From the IMG/VR virus record IMGVR_UViG_3300009548_000502, positions 1-49,882 of that record: DNA of 49,882 nt. One strand, given 5' to 3'. Both the position numbers and the translations under genes were made by a program. Below, in pieces: positions 17,919-45,391 of the stretch. The stretch's first letter is position 1. Every line of letters starts with the position of its first letter. Origin of the DNA: a virus. The notes beneath the pieces are model-generated. The model saw only the letters and a program-made list of their open reading frames with translations, ran no database searches and was not told the origin of the DNA.

Positions 17919-18074
17919 CCACGAAGGGCACGAAGGACACGAAGAAAAGACTCGTTATGGATAAAAACCAAAACTTTTTAGGCATTGCCTCTCCCTATGA
18001 ATTTTTTCCTTCGTGCTCTTCGTGCTCTTCGTGGTGATAGATTTTTTGTTTTTACGCCAACAATCTTCGTGGTG
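17919..18074. repeat. Repeat bracket, CACCACGAAGG family, double 3' arm
   Basis: 5' arm CACCACGAAGGGCACGAAGG then a variable middle. First 3' arm CTTCGTGCTCTTCGTGCTCT plus TCGTGGTG ends near 18037; a second short arm CTTCGTGGTGA ends at 18075 next to GAGAAAG, the ribosome site of the next gene. Confidence 0.85.
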
Positions 18075-21706: not shown

Positions 21707-23038
21707 ATGCCGGGATTGATGAAGCGAGCCTGGGAGAAGGCGAAGAAAATCGGCAGGCGCAGACAGGAGCCTGTGCGGGAAACGAGGCTTTATCCCAGGT
21801 TAATGAACGTCGGGGGCTACACGACGCGGGAAAAACCGCTCATCAAGCCCACGGCGATGAACGTCCGGAAGTTTTCGCGGACGCCGTATGCCAGGCGCGC
21901 AATAAATACGATCAAGGACCCGATTGGCACTCTATGCGATAGAGGTCAGTGGGAGATCGTACCAAAGCCAGGCGTAGCGTTAACGTCTGAAATTAAAAGG
22001 CAAATCAACATTACAACATCATGTTTGGAGAGGCCAAATCGCGATGATTCGTTCGAAAGCCTGGCCGAGCAAACGGTTGAGGACATTTTAGTATGTGGCG
22101 CCGGCGCGATAGAACAGCAACTCGGATCGGACCCGAAACGGCCCGTATGGCTTTGGCCGGTCGATGGGATGTCCATACAGATATACGCCGGATGGACCGG
22201 GGCGTGGGATGAAGCGAGATACCTGCAGACGCTCGGATACGGCAACATAGGCGGCGTCCAGGGAATCCAGCTTCGGAATGACGAACTAATCTATATCCGC
22301 AAAGATCCGACAACCGAGAACCCGTTCGGCTTCGGGCCGCTAGAAATAGCATTCGCAACCCTCAACCGGCAATTGACGACGGCTGAATATTCCGGGAACG
22401 TAGCCGGAAATGCGCAGCCACAAAATATAATTCTTTTTCAAGGAGCGACTGAAGATCAAATCAAGAGGGTGAGGAGCTGGTGGCACGATGAAATTGAAGG
22501 CCAGGGGGCCATGCCGATTGTTGGCTACCAGGACCTCAAGGCCATAAAGCTCCATGCGGGTAGCGATGCAGCCCTCTATCTCAAATATCAGGAGCATATC
22601 ATCAGGGAGATCGCAGTTCCCTTCGGAATCTCCCCAATGAATATGGGCCTTGAAGCTGATGTCAATCGGAGCACAGCCGAGGTCGCAACAGATCGCGATT
22701 GGGAGATAGCCATCATCCCGACTGCCGGTCTCATTAGACGGCATATAAATAGGGAAATGATCGAAGGGAAACTGGGCTTCTACCAGATACATTTTCGATG
22801 GACCACGCTGGACAGAGAGGACGAAACGGAAGTCGCAAGGAGATATGGAATTGAATACCGCAATAATGCAACTACGCCGAATGAGTATCGAGCAATGACA
22901 AGCAGGCCTCCGATGAAGAGCAAATTCGGGGACATGACTGCGGCGGAAACGCAGATGCTCGTAGGGAAGAAGAAAGACATTCACCACGGAGACACAGAGG
23001 ACACAGAGGACCCGGAGGGAAAAAACGGAAAAGATTAA
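21707..23038 (+). CDS. Phage portal protein
   Basis: 443 residues, the dodecameric ring at the packaging vertex. Features consistent with the HK97/PBSX-type portal family: RKFSRTPYARRAINTIKDPI, LVCGAGAIEQQLGSDPKRPV with GMSIQIY, LIYIRKDPTTENPFGFGPLE and the long helix region LKYQEHIIREIAVPFGISP. Residues 425-437 (IHHGDTEDTEDPE) are encoded by a 5' arm of repeat family A, added at the C-terminus. It is closer to the PF04860-type portal than to Mu gp29. Confidence 0.88.
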   Translation: MPGLMKRAWEKAKKIGRRRQEPVRETRLYPRLMNVGGYTTREKPLIKPTAMNVRKFSRTPYARRAINTIKDPIGTLCDRGQWEIVPKPGVALTSEIKRQINITTSCLERPNRDDSFESLAEQTVEDILVCGAGAIEQQLGSDPKRPVWLWPVDGMSIQIYAGWTGAWDEARYLQTLGYGNIGGVQGIQLRNDELIYIRKDPTTENPFGFGPLEIAFATLNRQLTTAEYSGNVAGNAQPQNIILFQGATEDQIKRVRSWWHDEIEGQGAMPIVGYQDLKAIKLHAGSDAALYLKYQEHIIREIAVPFGISPMNMGLEADVNRSTAEVATDRDWEIAIIPTAGLIRRHINREMIEGKLGFYQIHFRWTTLDREDETEVARRYGIEYRNNATTPNEYRAMTSRPPMKSKFGDMTAAETQMLVGKKKDIHHGDTEDTEDPEGKNGKD

Positions 23039-29908: not shown

Positions 29909-30044
29909 CACCACGAAGGGCACGAAGGGCACGAAGGGCACAAAGGGTAAAGAGAAAAGATCTCTTGGACAAGGAATAGATTTCTGCAGATTTCTTTTCT
30001 TTTCCACAAGTTTCTTCTTCATGTTCTTCGTGGTCTTCGTGGTG
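29909..30044. repeat. Repeat bracket, CACCACGAAGG family
   Basis: 5' arm CACCACGAAGGGCACGAAGG with two further units; 3' arm CATGTTCTTCGTGGTCTTCG then TGGTG. The next gene uses a TTG start 16 bases on. Confidence 0.85.
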
Positions 30045-33003: not shown

Positions 33004-33075
33004 AATAAACAAATTCAGGAATTGAGGGATTGAAGAATTGAGGAATTGAATTCCTAAATCCCTAAATCCCTAAAT
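33004..33075. repeat. Repeat bracket, AATTGAGG family
   Basis: 5' arm ATTGAGGGATTGAAGAATTG and 3' arm CCTAAATCCCTAAATCCCTA fill the gap. AGGAGGG follows, ahead of the sheath ATG. Confidence 0.8.
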
Positions 33076-33088
33076 TCAGGAGGGCAAC

Positions 33089-34636
33089 ATGCCTGTAGTT
33101 CAGCAGGGACAAATCAATTTAACGGCGCTTATCGTGCCCGACGTGTACGTGCAGATCATTCCGCCGAGCAATTACCTCATAAACGGTCTGCCGACGAACA
33201 TCCTGGGCGTTGTGGGAACTGCGGCCTGGGGGCCGGTCAATTCGCCCACGATCATCGGAGACATGTGGCAGTACGCGCAGCTTTTCGGGCAGATCCAGGC
33301 GCGCAAGTACGACATGGGTACGGCCGTTGCCGGGGCGGTCCTTCAGGGGGCGAGCAATTTCAGGTGCGTGCGCGTTACGGACGGCACGGACCTGGCGGCG
33401 AATACGACCATCCAATCCACCTGCCTCACGGTGACATCGAAATATACCGGGAGCCTCGGAAGCGGCCTCCAGGTCACCATCGCGGCGGGGTCCGCCGCCA
33501 ATAGCTGGAGGGCCACGGTTTCCATGCCGGGCGTCATGCCCGAAGTCTTTGACAACCTGGCCGCCGGGCTCGGCGGAAATGCGGTCTGGCTTGCCATCGC
33601 AAGCGCCATAAATAACGGCATATCGGGTCTTCGGGGTCCGAGCCAGCTCATCGTGGCGAGCGCCGGGGCCGGGACTGCCGCACCTTCGCCGGGGACAGTC
33701 ACTCTTTCCGGAGGAACGGACGGCGCATCGGGAGTTACGGCGAACACCCTTCTCGGCCAGGACACCATCCCGAGGCAGGGCATGTACGCTCTCAGAAATA
33801 CCGGGGCATCGGTCGGGATGCTCGCCGACTGCGATACTTCGGCCACGTGGACAACGCAGGTAGCCTTCGGACTAAGCGAAGGCGTCTATATGATCATGGT
33901 CGGGCCTGCCGGGGACACGATCAGTAATGCCACGGCGACGAAGGCCTCAGCCGGCATCGATTCCTACACGGCTAAACTCCTGTTTGGCGACTGGATCTAT
34001 TTCAACGATACGGTCAACAACCTGGTGCGGCTCATCTCGCCGCAGGGGTTTATAGCGGGGCTTCTCTCGAACCTCTCCCCGCAGAATTCGACCTTGAATA
34101 AGCAGCTCTACGGGATCGTCGGGACCCAGAAGAGCATGCAGAACCAGGTTTACTCCGCTGCCGACTTGCAGGCCCTGGGCCAGGCGGGGATCGACCTGAT
34201 TTGCAACCCGGTGCCCGGCGGCAATTATTTCGGGGCCCGGTTCGGCTGGAACACGTCGAGCAACCAGGTCATTCACGGCGACAACTATACGCGCATGACG
34301 AACTACATCGCCTACACGCTCAACGCCGGCATGGGCTATTACGTGGGCAAGACGCAGAGCCTCGATCTGCAACGGCAAGCAGCCGCGACTCTCACTGCCT
34401 TTCTCATGAACTTATGGACCATCAACCCGCCCATGATCGGGAACAGCCTCGGCACGATACCTTTTTCGGTCGAATGCGACGCGGGCAACAACCCGCAGAA
34501 CATGGTGGCCCTGGGATACATGACGGCCTCCGTGATGGTCACATACCTGTCCATAGTGGAGAAGTTCATCATAAACCTGGAAGGCGGCCAGAGCGTACAG
34601 GTGAACAAGGTCAGCACGCAGATCGCGCCGCAATAG
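33089..34636 (+). CDS. Tail sheath protein
   Basis: 515 residues, the contractile sheath. Typical sheath features: PDVYVQIIPPSNYLINGLPT and VGTAAWGPVNSP early, a variable beta-rich insertion, and the conserved C-terminal domain LDLQRQAAATLTAFLMNLWT with MVTYLSIVEKFIINLEGGQS. AGGAGGG precedes the ATG. Downstream lies the tube gene, the usual sheath-tube order of myoviruses. It contracts to drive the tube through the envelope. Confidence 0.9.
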   Translation: MPVVQQGQINLTALIVPDVYVQIIPPSNYLINGLPTNILGVVGTAAWGPVNSPTIIGDMWQYAQLFGQIQARKYDMGTAVAGAVLQGASNFRCVRVTDGTDLAANTTIQSTCLTVTSKYTGSLGSGLQVTIAAGSAANSWRATVSMPGVMPEVFDNLAAGLGGNAVWLAIASAINNGISGLRGPSQLIVASAGAGTAAPSPGTVTLSGGTDGASGVTANTLLGQDTIPRQGMYALRNTGASVGMLADCDTSATWTTQVAFGLSEGVYMIMVGPAGDTISNATATKASAGIDSYTAKLLFGDWIYFNDTVNNLVRLISPQGFIAGLLSNLSPQNSTLNKQLYGIVGTQKSMQNQVYSAADLQALGQAGIDLICNPVPGGNYFGARFGWNTSSNQVIHGDNYTRMTNYIAYTLNAGMGYYVGKTQSLDLQRQAAATLTAFLMNLWTINPPMIGNSLGTIPFSVECDAGNNPQNMVALGYMTASVMVTYLSIVEKFIINLEGGQSVQVNKVSTQIAPQ

Positions 34637-34644
34637 GGGCGAAT

Positions 34645-34712
34645 TGAGGGATTAAGGAATTGAGGGATTGAAGAATTGAATTCCTAAATTCCTAAATTCT
34701 TAAATTCCTAAA
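34645..34712. repeat. Repeat bracket, AATTGAGG family
   Basis: 5' arm TTGAGGGATTAAGGAATTGA and 3' arm CCTAAATTCCTAAATTCTTA, followed by AGGAG and the tube ATG. Confidence 0.8.
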
Positions 34713-34728
34713 TTTTCAGGAGAATAAA

Positions 34729-35160
34729 ATGCCGATCAATAATTTCAGTGTAGGGCGGGACGTCAGCCTGGTTATCCAGACGCCGGGAGGTCCGCTGATC
34801 TCGAGTCTCGTTACTCATTTTTCGTCCAAGGCCGACATGACGGAAATAAAGGTCAAAGGCCTGGACGGCATAACGAGGCACGTGCGCTTTTTCGACGGCT
34901 GGAGCGGCAAGTTCGAATACGAGCGCCAGGACAGCGTATTGGATGATTATTTCGCGCAACTCGAGGCGAACTATTACCTCGGGGTCCCGGAGCAGCCGTG
35001 CATGATCCAGGAGACAATCCAGAACCCCAACGGGAGCATTGTCCAATATGTATATCCCGGCGTCTTGCTCAAATACGACAACGCCGGCTCCTGGGAAGGC
35101 GACAAAACGGTCAAGCTGGACATAAGCTGGGTGGCGATCAGGCGGCTTAAGACGGCGTAA
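34729..35160 (+). CDS. Tail tube protein
   Basis: 143 residues, a normal tube size. Characteristic tube beta-barrel pattern: GRDVSLVIQTPGGPLISSLV, IKVKGLDGITRHVRFFDGW, GKFEYERQD and YPGVLLKYDNAGSWEGDKTV. It lies next to the sheath gene. AGGAG 7 bases before the ATG. Forms the inner tube of the tail. Confidence 0.87.
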   Translation: MPINNFSVGRDVSLVIQTPGGPLISSLVTHFSSKADMTEIKVKGLDGITRHVRFFDGWSGKFEYERQDSVLDDYFAQLEANYYLGVPEQPCMIQETIQNPNGSIVQYVYPGVLLKYDNAGSWEGDKTVKLDISWVAIRRLKTA

Positions 35161-35205: not shown

Positions 35206-35601
35206 ATGCCTTGGGCATGCAGGCTGATTGAATGGCGGAAGGGGATGATTGGAATGGATCTCCGGATCGGGGATATGTGGTTTCATTCTGAGCTGTTCCG
35301 AGACGCGGCCGGCTATCTCGATTGGCCGTTCATGATGTCGAAATCGCCCAGGCTTTCCGATTTTTACAAGCAACACAATACCCGCCGCGAACCGGTTCTG
35401 GTCTGGATGCCATGCAAAGAAGTCTTTTGCGTGGATGGCATGTGCTGGAATCATGACAGGGTTTTTTATGAAGGTTGGGAAGTGACAGGAGAACCGCCAT
35501 TAATCACGGTATCTCCGAGCATCAATATCCTTGGGGCATATCACGGATGGATCCGGGACGGAATAATCAGCGATGATTGTGAAGGGAGAACCTACGAATG
35601 A
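35206..35601 (+). CDS. Hypothetical protein, DUF6527-like
   Basis: 131 residues. Contains CRLIEWR at the start and SINILGAYHGWIRDGIISDD near the end, a pattern I associate with the DUF6527 family (xHxWIRxG). No known activity. It overlaps the next gene by ATGA. GGAGGGG is very close to the ATG. Its presence between tube and chaperone genes is not typical of model phages; probably accessory. Confidence 0.5.
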   Translation: MPWACRLIEWRKGMIGMDLRIGDMWFHSELFRDAAGYLDWPFMMSKSPRLSDFYKQHNTRREPVLVWMPCKEVFCVDGMCWNHDRVFYEGWEVTGEPPLITVSPSINILGAYHGWIRDGIISDDCEGRTYE

Positions 35602-35999
35602 AAGTCACAATGCACGATACGGGAACGGCGCCGGTGGAGGAAGAGAAAACCACGGTCATCAAGCCTTCGGGCGATACGGAGTTAATAACCGACGACCTGG
35701 GCCGGAAGATCCGGACGCGGATCCCTGATATCCTGGAGGAATATGAACTCATGGCCGCGATCGGCGGGAACGAAGCCGGGAACCCGGCGACGTCCTCGAT
35801 GGCCCGGATGACCTTATACGTGGCGCAGATAGATGATGTGATAATTGTGGTGCCCAGGACCAGGCCGCAGATGCGCGTGGTCTTAAAGCAGCTCGGCAAT
35901 GAAGGCATAAAGGCGCTCATGCCGGTTGCCGTGAAACACCAGGCGAAATTTTCCATCGACGAGGAATTACTAAAAAACTACTCCGGGACGACCGCGTAA
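35598..35999 (+). CDS. Tail assembly chaperone, short form
   Basis: 133 residues, located between tube and tape measure genes. Helical, with acidic N-terminus (KVTMHDTGTAPVEEEKTTVI) and RMTLYVAQIDDVIIVVPRTR. The C-terminus DEELLKNYSGTTA contains the slippery codons. This matches the G part of the G/GT chaperone pair of long-tailed phages, which coat the tape measure during tail assembly. A frameshifted longer product is predicted (separate entry). Confidence 0.75.
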   Translation: MKVTMHDTGTAPVEEEKTTVIKPSGDTELITDDLGRKIRTRIPDILEEYELMAAIGGNEAGNPATSSMARMTLYVAQIDDVIIVVPRTRPQMRVVLKQLGNEGIKALMPVAVKHQAKFSIDEELLKNYSGTTA

Positions 36000-36160
36000 G
36001 AGAGAGGCTGTGGCTCGTGAAAAACGGCCTTCGGCTCGACGAGGCGTTCCTGCTCAACCCGCTAAGCGCAAGGGCGTTTGCGATAATGTTCAGTGAAATG
36101 GAAGGGCATAAGTTCGATTTGGACAGGATGGATTTCGTTAAGCCGCCAGCGGGCGAATGA
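35598..36160 (+). CDS. Tail assembly chaperone, -1 frameshift form (G-T type)
   Basis: The zero frame has CTA-AAA-AAC at 35970-35978, containing A_AAA_AAC at 35972-35978, a canonical -1 slippery heptamer. After slipping, translation continues in the -1 frame from 35978 to the TGA at 36158-36160, adding about 60 residues (LLRDDRVRERLWLVKNGLRL, DEAFLLNPLSARAFAIM, then FDLDRMDFVKPPAGE). The predicted product is about 187 residues. The extension has no convincing ribosome site of its own; a GTG at 36017 is the only internal start. Location and layout fit the classic phage G/GT frameshift. Confidence 0.85.
35972..35978 (+). promoter_or_regulatory. Programmed -1 ribosomal frameshift site A_AAA_AAC
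   Basis: Seven-base slippery sequence in the correct phase (xxA AAA AAC) seven codons before the zero-frame stop. A downstream stimulatory structure is not obvious by eye; GC-rich sequence at 35984-35996 and 36023-36045 could fold. Confidence 0.8.
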
Positions 36161-36165
36161 TATTT

Positions 36166-36327
36166 CACCACGAAGGAGGAGCGCAGCGCGGTGAAGAGCA
36201 CAAAGGAAAGGCAAAAGTGGGAAAACTTCTTCAAAAAAGCATCACCAGGTCGCTCGATCGGAGCAGCTCTTTATCGCCAAAGTGGTGATTCTATATTTTC
36301 TTCGTGTTCTTCGTGCTCTTCGTGGTG
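36166..36327. repeat. Repeat bracket, CACCACGAAGG family
   Basis: 5' arm CACCACGAAGGAGGAGCGCA with the insertion GCGCAGCGCGGTGAAG; 3' arm TTCGTGTTCTTCGTGCTCTT and CGTGGTG before GAGAAAGG. The middle holds AAAGTGGGAA, a phrase shared with the spacers at 40499 and 44262. Confidence 0.85.
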
Positions 36328-36343: not shown

Positions 36344-36880
36344 ATGGAAGTTTTTGATCTGGAAGGATTTGCCGTTTACCTCACCCACTGCGCGGAGAAG
36401 GGCAAGCAATCGCACTTGGGCCTGGAGCTTTGCGCGCAGATTGTGGAGCAGACTGCCAAAGCCGAAATCGGCGAATATCAGCCGGAAGCATATCCTTTTC
36501 CGGCCTGGGCGCCGCTTGCCGAAAGCACGCTGGAGCAGAAAGAAAAACTCGGATACTCACCTCCGGACAATCCGCTCTGGCGCACGGGAGCGCTCCGGGA
36601 CTCGATCAGCCACGAAGTGGAAAACGATATAGCCACTATCGGCTCAGACAGCGAAGTCATGGTTTATCATGAATTCGGCACGAGCAAGATGCCCATGCGC
36701 CCAGTCCTGGGGCCGGCGCTAATGAATAATCTCAAAAATATCGATGCCATATTAGGCCACGCGGCAACGGGCGGATTTATAAGAGAGACGCTGACGAAGA
36801 CGTTGCCGGACGGAACTATTGCTACGCTCTCGCGCATGGTCGAGGCCCACTCGACCCTTGGATATGATTGGTCCTTTTAG
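36344..36880 (+). CDS. Tail completion / virion morphogenesis protein (Mu gpG-like)
   Basis: 178 residues. The motif MVYHEFGTSKMPMRPVLGPA (about 105-124) is the hallmark of phage virion-morphogenesis / HK97-gp10-type proteins, and LWRTGALRDSISHEV precedes it as usual. GAGAAAGG lies upstream. These proteins usually sit near the head-tail genes, but here the gene lies between chaperone and tape measure. It completes the tail or neck. Confidence 0.8.
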   Translation: MEVFDLEGFAVYLTHCAEKGKQSHLGLELCAQIVEQTAKAEIGEYQPEAYPFPAWAPLAESTLEQKEKLGYSPPDNPLWRTGALRDSISHEVENDIATIGSDSEVMVYHEFGTSKMPMRPVLGPALMNNLKNIDAILGHAATGGFIRETLTKTLPDGTIATLSRMVEAHSTLGYDWSF

Positions 36881-37156: not shown

Positions 37157-38992
37157 TTGCCTACAGCGTACCAGGTAATGGTCACGATAGGCCTCAAAAA
37201 CCAGGTCTCTCCCGGTCTCATGACCATATCCGGGCAGCTCACCGGCCTGAGCGGCCAGGTGCAGAAGATAGGCAATGTATTCGCGCAGATGATGGCCGGC
37301 CGCATGATCGAGAACTTCGGGACCAAGATGGTGCACGGCTTTAAATCCGCCGTATCGAGCGCGGCCGAACTGCAACGGCAGATGATCGGGATCCAAGCGG
37401 TCACCAAGGGCAGCGTAGGTGAAATGACTCGCCTCGAGGCGGCCATTATGAAGGTGACCGGCGTTACGACCTTTTCCAACGTCCAGGTCGCTCAGATGGC
37501 GAAAACCCTGGCCACGAGCAATAAACTCACCGTATCTCAAATCACGGACCTCATCCCCGTTTTTGCAAAGTTCGCCGATGCACAATATGTGCTCAAAGGG
37601 ATGCCTCCCCAGCAGTCGGTTGTCGAGGCCGTGCGCCTGGCGCATACGGCGCAGCATTATACGCCGGCGGAATTGACGAAATATCTCGATCTTCTCACCC
37701 GCGCTTCGCTTATTACGCCGGGCAGCCTCACCGAAGTCGGGCACGCTCTCAAATACTCCCAGGGGGTCGGCAAGACGGCGCTCGGCATAAGCGACGATCA
37801 GATAGTCCTCATGACGGCGCTCTTAAACCGGATGGGCTTTGCGGGATCGAGAGGCGGAACCAATCTTCTTGCCGCCATGACGCGGACGATCCCGGGCGTT
37901 TTCGGCTCCGGGCTGCTCCGAGGCAAGAGCGCCGAAGCACTGGCCGCAATGGGATTTATCGATGAAAGCGGCCATTCGACAATATTCGATAAAGGCAAAT
38001 TCAGCGTCGAAAAATGGATGATGCAGCTCAGCACGTACCTCGGACGCGAGTTTGCGACCAAGTCCGAAGCCATCGCCCGCCAGGATATCATGAAGAATTT
38101 TCAACACGCTTTCGGCGTGCAAGGCGGCAGAATTGCTTCTCTCTTGTCTAACCCGGCAGCGCTGGAGCAGATGAAATCGCTCCTGCAGGAATTCAAAATG
38201 CTGCCCGGAAACGCCGAAATTCAAGGCAAATTCGCCGATGAATCCGTATGGCAGAAGGCGATCAACGCGCAGACGAACATGAAGAGCATCCTCACGCTCC
38301 TGGGTGAAAAGACGCTCCCGGAAGTGGGAAAAGGCCTCAGCTTTTTCAATGCGCGCCTGGCGGAACTGATCGAACACCTGGGCAAAGGCGGCCCGGAAGT
38401 GTCGGCCCAGGCAAGACTGATCGTTTACACTCTCGGCGGACTCGGCGGGGCGCTCGTGATCTTCGGGAAAGTCCTCATGGGACTGGCCCTCCTGAAATAC
38501 CTGGGAGGAGTGACCGGGGCGCTGGGTCTCCTGGCTGGGACGGCCGGGACCGTGGCCGCGCCTGTTCTTGCCATAGTGGGAGCGCTTGTGGCCCTGGGGG
38601 CTGCGGCGGTCGCCATTTATTCGAATTGGGACAAGGTGCAGGCGAAGTGGCGCCGCGATCAGGCAGCCTTCGGCAATTGGTGGGACCAGACGAAGCGCGA
38701 TCTGGGGCAGACATGGCATACCGGTCCGCACCGGTCCGGAGGTCCGCCTGATGCGACAATCAGGGGCGCCCATCCGGACGAGCACAGCAGCCTGGCCACC
38801 GGCAAAAGCTACGCGAGCAACTATACGCGCGGCGGCGGCAGCCAGAGCGTGCAGGTGCATAGTACGATAAACATCGATGGGCGAAAGGTGGCCGAGGCGG
38901 TAACCGACCACCAGGTGAAGGAATCGACCAGGGCGCTCGGCGGCGGCTATCCGGATTATACGTACGGCGCGCCGACCGTTGGCCTGGGTTGA
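37157..38992 (+). CDS. Tape measure protein
   Basis: 611 residues, TTG start, supported by GGAGAA 7 bases upstream and an overlapping ATG frame that stops at once. The first ~360 residues form the phage tail tape-measure domain (VTKGSVGEMTRLEAAIMKVT, TTFSNVQVAQMAKTLATSNK, NLLAAMTRTI). Hydrophobic transmembrane-like segments lie at about 420-490 (YTLGGLGGALVIFGKVLMGL, GTVAAPVLAIVGALVALGAA). It fixes tail length and may enter the host membrane during DNA injection. At 611 residues a tail of roughly 90 nm is expected by the usual 1.5 A per residue rule. Confidence 0.88.
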   Translation: MPTAYQVMVTIGLKNQVSPGLMTISGQLTGLSGQVQKIGNVFAQMMAGRMIENFGTKMVHGFKSAVSSAAELQRQMIGIQAVTKGSVGEMTRLEAAIMKVTGVTTFSNVQVAQMAKTLATSNKLTVSQITDLIPVFAKFADAQYVLKGMPPQQSVVEAVRLAHTAQHYTPAELTKYLDLLTRASLITPGSLTEVGHALKYSQGVGKTALGISDDQIVLMTALLNRMGFAGSRGGTNLLAAMTRTIPGVFGSGLLRGKSAEALAAMGFIDESGHSTIFDKGKFSVEKWMMQLSTYLGREFATKSEAIARQDIMKNFQHAFGVQGGRIASLLSNPAALEQMKSLLQEFKMLPGNAEIQGKFADESVWQKAINAQTNMKSILTLLGEKTLPEVGKGLSFFNARLAELIEHLGKGGPEVSAQARLIVYTLGGLGGALVIFGKVLMGLALLKYLGGVTGALGLLAGTAGTVAAPVLAIVGALVALGAAAVAIYSNWDKVQAKWRRDQAAFGNWWDQTKRDLGQTWHTGPHRSGGPPDATIRGAHPDEHSSLATGKSYASNYTRGGGSQSVQVHSTINIDGRKVAEAVTDHQVKESTRALGGGYPDYTYGAPTVGLG

Positions 38993-39000
38993 GAAGAGAT

Positions 39001-39033
39001 CCACCACGAAGGATACGAAGAGCACGAAGGGAG
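39001..39033 (+). repeat. 5' arm, CACCACGAAGG family
   Basis: CACCACGAAGGATACGAAGA then GCACGAAGG, right after the tape measure stop. The next gene's ribosome site (AGGGAGCAGG) follows. The matching 3' arm (another family) lies at 39507-39529, after the Tat-signal gene. Confidence 0.8.
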
Positions 39034-39038
39034 CAGGG

Positions 39039-39488
39039 GTGGACATAACAAGACGGCAATTTTTAAAAGCTTTGGCTGCCGCAACGGTGGCAGCTCAAAT
39101 TCCCGTCTCCGCTTTTTCTGCGACACGCATGCCATATGTAAATGTCGGAGAGGCCGTCGATTACATCGGCCACCATCCTTATCCAGGACCATTAGGCTCA
39201 CCAATTGTACTGGAAGTCGGATCTTGGGATGGCCTTGGATATCCAATTGTCTTGGATATCTGCGGGCGATATCCATCAGCGGTCGCAAAGGGTTATGACT
39301 TCGATTTTGCAGTTCTGAGAAATGAATACCCACCCGACATCTGGGGGCATCCAGAGAACAGGGCGAAATATCCCAATGTGCAAACCTATATTCGGACGCG
39401 TCGATTTGGCGAAACAGTAGAAGAGGCTATTCGTCACTTGAATTATACAAGTACTGAAAAATGGCTGAAGTATGGGTGGAGTTTTTAA
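39039..39488 (+). CDS. Tat-exported accessory protein
   Basis: 149 residues from GTG (AGGGAG 5 bases upstream). The N-terminus has a twin-arginine motif TRRQFLKAL followed by AAATVAAQIPVSAFSAT, a typical Tat leader with AFSA cleavage region. The mature part (MPYVNVGEAVDYIGHHPYPG, WDICGRYPSAVAKGYDFDFA, EEAIRHLNYTSTEKW) is of unknown fold. It is placed inside the tail operon between tape measure and hub genes and is bracketed by repeat arms of two families. It is not a virion gene by any recognised motif; a moron-like lysogenic or lytic effector in the periplasm is inferred. Confidence 0.7.
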   Translation: MDITRRQFLKALAAATVAAQIPVSAFSATRMPYVNVGEAVDYIGHHPYPGPLGSPIVLEVGSWDGLGYPIVLDICGRYPSAVAKGYDFDFAVLRNEYPPDIWGHPENRAKYPNVQTYIRTRRFGETVEEAIRHLNYTSTEKWLKYGWSF

Positions 39489-42614: not shown

Positions 42615-43010
42615 ATGGCCCAACAACTTCTAAGCGATCTCTACCAGATCTGGTCGACGGACCTGGAGGCATCAAATAGCGGGGATCTTCAGGCCGTGAC
42701 GGGCACGGAACGCGGCAAGCAGCGGATATTGAGACGCCTCATGACCAACCCGGGCGATTATATTTTCGACCCAAGCTATGGACTCGGGCTGCCGCAATAC
42801 GTGGGCCAGCCGCAGAGCAAGGATATGCTCGATAAGATCAATGGGATTGCATCGAGCCAGATACTCCAAGAGGCTGTAGTTGCGCCTTCGCCGCCTCCGG
42901 TTGTGAGCATAACGCAGCTTCCGGATTTTTCGTTGTGGGTCTGGATCCAATATGTGGACGCGCCAACGGGCACGCCGATTGTGTTGAGCTTTAACGTGGA
43001 AAACGATTGA
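42615..43010 (+). CDS. Baseplate wedge protein (Mu gp46 / gp25-like)
   Basis: 131 residues. LSDLYQIWSTDLEASNSGDL, GTERGKQRILRRLMTNPGDY and IFDPSYGLGLPQYVGQP match the Mu gp46 / T4 gp25 family of baseplate wedge proteins. The conserved 'RRLMTNPGDYxxDPxYG' region is clear. No strong ribosome site. It precedes the baseplate J gene, as in Mu. Confidence 0.85.
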   Translation: MAQQLLSDLYQIWSTDLEASNSGDLQAVTGTERGKQRILRRLMTNPGDYIFDPSYGLGLPQYVGQPQSKDMLDKINGIASSQILQEAVVAPSPPPVVSITQLPDFSLWVWIQYVDAPTGTPIVLSFNVEND

Positions 43011-43013
43011 GGA

Positions 43014-43099
43014 ATTATAAAATTGAGGCATTGGGGAATTGAAGAATTGAGGGATTAAAAACCAATTCCTAAATTCCTAAATTCTTAAATTCCTAAATT
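43014..43099. repeat. Repeat bracket, AATTGAGG family
   Basis: 5' arm ATTATAAAATTGAGGCATTG, 3' arm CCTAAATTCCTAAATTCTTA and ATTCCTAAATTT, followed by AATGGAG and a TTG start for the next gene. Confidence 0.8.
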
Positions 43100-45275: not shown

Positions 45276-45289
45276 ACGGATTGAGGAAT

Positions 45290-45391
45290 TGAAGAATTGA
45301 GGAATTGAGGAATTGGCTAAAACTAATTGAAGAATTGAAAAGCAATTGAGCTCTTAATTCCTAAATTCCCAAATTCCTGAATTCCTAAATT
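45290..45391. repeat. Repeat bracket, AATTGAGG family
   Basis: Several 5' units (AATTGAGGAATTGAGGAATTG) and 3' units CCTAAATTCCCAAATTCCTG then AATTCCTAAATT, immediately followed by GGAG and the tail fibre ATG. Confidence 0.8.

Follow-up and report, generated by a model that had tools for sequence, protein, structure and literature searches.

The synthesis of a tail-assembly helper by ribosomal frameshifting has long been known in tailed phages, and both the mechanism and the participation of a slippery heptamer in the tail chaperone role belong to textbook knowledge; the heptamer of phage lambda is G_GGA_AAG. In the lambda system as it has been described, most ribosomes make a short chaperone, which attaches to the tape measure protein; the few that slip produce a long form, whose extra domain brings in the tail tube subunits (PMC5009743). 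AAAAAAC is the proposed site in the tail chaperones of phiCbK and Loki (PMC3556154, PMC5313236), and A_AAA_AAC is reported to be inefficient in E. coli, yet used by insertion sequences (PMC4066793).

The virus record IMGVR_UViG_3300009548_000502 (IMG/VR), whose 49,882 nucleotides were analysed as a whole and are referred to here as the window, very probably contains a tail assembly chaperone gene expressed with a -1 programmed ribosomal frameshift, yielding gpG-like and gpGT-like products. The features of the locus are the following:

33089-34636, + strand: tail sheath gene (phrog_23, E 3.1e-42)
34729-35160, + strand: probable tail tube gene, 143 aa (phrog_12993, unknown function, E 1e-45)
35206-35601, + strand: 131-aa ORF following the probable tube gene and preceding the chaperone gene (phrog_33338, E 1.4e-26)
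35598-35999, + strand: probable gpG-like chaperone, zero frame, 133 aa (phrog_20383, E 7.2e-15; its model weakly resembles tail assembly chaperones)
35963-35968, + strand: GAGGAA, putative upstream Shine-Dalgarno-like stimulator, present in 5/5 close lineages
35972-35978, + strand: slippery heptamer A_AAA_AAC (AAAAAAC in phase, zero-frame codons CTA AAA AAC)
35978-36160, + strand: -1 frame extension (putative T-like domain), 60 codons plus stop
36344-36880, + strand: Phage_tail_S / tail completion gene (PF05069, E 1.9e-5, above the curated cut-off)
37157-38992, + strand: tape measure gene (phrog_28, E 1.8e-25)

The zero frame runs from ATG (35598) to TAA (35999), with the heptamer near its end, and the -1 frame is open from 35978 for 60 codons until TGA (36158-36160), so that the in-phase A_AAA_AAC at the end of a 133-residue frame and the 60-residue extension ending at 36160, both reported in the preliminary description of this DNA, are borne out by the sequence, as is, by frame arithmetic, the length of 187 residues predicted for the product of a slip. 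Most ribosomes would read 35598-35999 and make the 133-aa gpG-like chaperone, and a smaller share, whose P-site tRNA is on AAA and A-site tRNA on AAC, would slip back one base at the heptamer and continue to 36160, producing the 187-aa gpGT-like protein. By analogy with lambda, the part shared by the two products may bind the tape measure protein, and the C-terminal domain of the rarer product may recruit tail tube subunits. We infer the occurrence of slippage, its frequency and the roles of both products.

The chaperone gene lies downstream of the sheath and probable tube genes and upstream of the tape measure gene, and is separated from the probable tube gene and from the tape measure gene by one gene each. 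The phrog_12993 gene probably codes for the tail tube, judging by its place after the sheath gene. The order tube - G/GT - tape measure proposed earlier is thus correct in outline, but strict adjacency does not hold, and the argument from gene order holds only in part, since the 131-aa ORF and the Phage_tail_S gene interrupt the series. The 131-aa ORF, which overlaps the start of the chaperone gene by 4 nt and whose DUF6527 match falls below the family cut-off, looks like an inserted extra gene. The locus differs from that of lambda in its heptamer, in that Phage_tail_S separates GT from the tape measure gene, and in that its genes belong to a contractile tail (a sheath is present); no sequence similarity was detected between lambda gpG/gpGT and the window proteins. 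With phiCbK and Loki it shares the proposed heptamer, in the same kind of gene. Both are siphophages, and the window proteins matched no phage record by tblastn.

The window has other features in and around its genes. Directly 3' of the tape measure gene there is a 169-aa ORF (38979-39488) that matches the Tat signal family PF10518 (E 6.3e-6) and whose N-terminus reads through one of the short repeats. Short arrays of 7-, 8- and 9-base units (CACGAAGGA, AATTGAGG / AATTCCTA, GGACTGA and CGCGAAGC) fill many of the gaps between genes, for example at 17920-17944, 29912-29947, 33012-33075, 34641-34714, 36298-36324, 43006-43099 and 45280-45391; counting both strands, TCACCAC precedes the 9-base type at no fewer than 14 places, and these arrays were perhaps taken from the host. 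One 9-base repeat precedes GGGAAAAAAC (23017-23026), which holds two overlapping in-phase heptamers, G_GGA_AAA and A_AAA_AAC, about 12 nt before the stop of a portal-like ORF (21707-23038); the -1 frame there stays open for about 62 codons, and these heptamers may be due to chance.

The zero-frame protein belongs to phrog_20383, a family labelled "unknown function" that was also matched in 10 of 10 other lineages scanned; its name was not found in the literature searched. The AlphaFold2 model of this protein (mean pLDDT 78, with residues 1-24 below 50) gave as top Foldseek match in the PDB the HK97 tail assembly chaperone 2ob9, a weak one (E 1.3, 11% identity), and the VIA comparison with that structure was also weak (Z 5.2, rmsd 5.1 over 96 residues). 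Tail assembly chaperones are among its best matches in viral structures, with E values of 0.008-0.03. For the extension, the model is a small three-helix domain (mean pLDDT 86); it has no significant match among viral structures (best E 0.085), and searches of Pfam, PHROGs and NCBIfam gave the extension no convincing family. The named chaperone families in these three libraries are not matched by either frame of the window, and a search of NCBIfam with 23 members of each alignment gave no match above chance. A chaperone of the G/GT type is therefore the best reading because of the weak model match, the position of the gene and the frameshift taken together.

Relatives were searched for with the zero-frame protein and the extension, both singly and as alignments, and were found in viral contigs, in one bacterial genome and in phages phiKX1 and phiKX2 (the junction was read in phiKX1 only). 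The two phages were recovered by tblastn with the zero-frame protein of the relative L066; the same search in phages gave no match with the L066 extension nor with the proteins of the window or of L027, and a first scan of genome contigs gave no match. Removal of near-identical copies left 27 representative lineages, the window included, which were picked by eye among near-identical rows and are related to each other, so that the counts given here are not of independent events. The rows dropped were L001-L005 (which do not differ from the window across the gene), the duplicates L008, L009 (as L010), L012 (as L011), L029 (as L030), L068 (as L069) and L070 (as L071), and second copies of contigs already included; the protein alignments A5 and A6 leave out L048, L049, L054 and L073. 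Relative to L010, L009 lacks one base within its extension, which leaves the junction intact and breaks the extension frame; we read this as an assembly error or decay.

All 27 lineages sharing the extension have an in-phase X_XXY_YYZ heptamer where the extension begins. It is of the form A_AAA_AAN in 25 of them, G_GGA_AAC in L054 and C_CCT_TTT in L071, and it was not selected for, because the loci were found through their proteins. Moreover, an extension profile run over 399 and 398 bacterial genomes as a held-out test produced nine new matches beyond the known genome, of which two were judged unrelated and seven true homologues; the junction was readable in six of these seven, and A_AAA_AAN stands at the predicted base in 6/6. 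L078 ends before the junction, and L046, L081 and L082 were judged to be unrelated long proteins without the heptamer. The preliminary description had proposed conservation in relatives as a check, and the heptamer is kept in the distant lineages and, as A_AAA_AAC, in 5/5 close ones (window included), none of which has lost it. The persistence of the slip site in distant relatives is what leads us to regard the frameshift reading as right.

The zero-frame stop lies from 0 to 54 nt past the heptamer in the 27 lineages, whereas the -1 frame is conserved, so that the zero-frame tail after the heptamer is free to vary, unlike the -1 frame. This stop abuts the heptamer in 15 of the 27 lineages and in four of the six held-out loci (19/33 in all, the window not among them), as in Loki. 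Ahead of AAA, the 25 A_AAA_AAN lineages use a codon with A in third position, mostly a rare one (where the amino acid is Leu, such codons account for 1-9% of the Leu codons of the locus), and the joint chance of the heptamer codons, with the amino acids taken as fixed, lies at 0.002-0.059 in 24 of these 25 lineages and at 0.25 in the AT-rich L030; these values were not multiplied across lineages because the lineages share history. Judging from dN/dS values of 0.12-0.45 in eight of ten close pairs (the other two are saturated), the extension is under purifying selection. Downstream of it, the family usually has a Phage_tail_S gene (the ORF that follows the extension matches PF05069 in 20/27 lineages), and the start of the next gene overlaps the extension stop by 1 or 4 nt in 16/27, which fits ribosomes exiting the -1 frame there; in the window, a gap of 183 nt separates the two.

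Among the other explanations, the one that survives best, although very improbable, is that the extension is an independent small protein, made from an internal start (GTG 36017 in the window) or by reinitiation after the zero-frame stop. This GTG has a Shine-Dalgarno-like GAGAGAGG upstream of it (35999-36006), and some in-frame ATG, GTG or TTG precedes the conserved core of the extension in 10/27 lineages. A published case is Komagataeibacter phage phiKX1 (LC644975.1), which shares with the window the gene order, the phrog_20383 protein, the in-phase AAAAAAC and a related extension, but in whose annotation the latter is a hypothetical CDS of its own that starts at an internal ATG; its heptamer, unlike that of the window, stands directly before TGA, the stop of the G-like frame. 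However, GTG 36017 is the first possible start in the -1 frame of the window and falls within the conserved LWLV core, where four other close lineages have GTT, GTA, GTT and ATA. Furthermore, no ATG, GTG or TTG stands ahead of the core in 17 of the 27 lineages, the window among them, in agreement with the earlier remark that the extension has no good start codon, and an independent start would leave the conserved in-phase heptamer unexplained. A separate start of the extension is, on this evidence, not credible in the window, and its existence as an independent protein, which had been named as a ground for rejecting the frameshift, was not seen. The frameshift of the G/GT type is thus supported by the heptamer kept in close relatives and by the lack of a start before the extension core in the window.

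Even less probable is transcriptional slippage, in which RNA polymerase would add one A and ordinary ribosomes would make the long product from the part of the mRNA that is in the -1 frame. The site of the window does contain a run of six A, and A_AAA_AAA is found in 6/27 lineages, but short runs slip little in transcription. In addition, polymerase slippage would need no fixed phase, whereas the phase A_AAA_AAN is fixed in 25/27 lineages and in 6/6 held-out loci, and the exceptions G_GGA_AAC and C_CCT_TTT lack a six-base run but retain the X_XXY_YYZ form of ribosomal slip sites. A meaningless coincidence of a heptamer and an open -1 frame, the least probable explanation, has in its favour that the window holds 282 heptamers on both strands and that a screen of its 153 ORFs of at least 90 aa (both strands) for an in-phase heptamer at most 36 nt from the stop with a -1 extension of at least 40 codons retrieved three, the chaperone ORF and those ending at 23038 (+) and 44367 (-), but the conservation in 27 lineages and six held-out loci, the codon choice at the site and the purifying selection on the extension refute it in practice. 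Since 2/152 other ORFs look alike, a heptamer and an open -1 frame alone are not proof, and it is the comparative evidence (lineages, codon choice and held-out loci) that places the pattern above chance.

Returning to the ribosomal frameshift, elements that could stimulate it were sought on both sides of the heptamer. In the window, the pairing energy of GAGGAA ranks among the best 13% of controls (0.13), which is not significant; that of the internal Shine-Dalgarno stretch is below the control mean in 25/27 lineages and within the lowest 5% of controls in seven of the 27, the window not being one of these, so that a role of this stretch as stimulator is suggestive. Folds of the 60 nt downstream of the heptamer have a mean z of -1.4 over the 27 lineages (range -4.7 to +1.6; -0.3 in the window), and RNAalifold, applied to an alignment of 26 of the 27 (L071 being left out because of its length difference), predicted no pairs. 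A hairpin of several lineages has 66.9% of cells paired vs 65.4% in shuffles, 74 of 500 of which were as high. A conserved downstream hairpin is rejected as a feature common to the lineages, and individual lineages may have one.

Several observations count against the frameshift: the similar pattern in two other ORFs of the window, a heptamer reported to be weak in E. coli, the lack of a conserved downstream stimulator, weak fold matches, no named chaperone family recognised by sequence, and the broken extension of L009. It could be speculated, although we consider it rather unlikely, that phrog_20383 is a widespread and so far unannotated family of contractile-phage chaperones that frameshift without a conserved downstream RNA structure, and that weak heptamers such as A_AAA_AAC, an upstream Shine-Dalgarno-like stretch and an abutting zero-frame stop (a trait that the window does not share) together set the G:GT ratio.

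What is new here is that phrog_20383, an unannotated family, gains a likely function, and that a conserved second domain, missed by gene callers and absent from the family libraries searched, comes to light. Diverse phages keep heptamers of a type that has been judged poor in E. coli, and stimulator-poor frameshifting thereby becomes testable.
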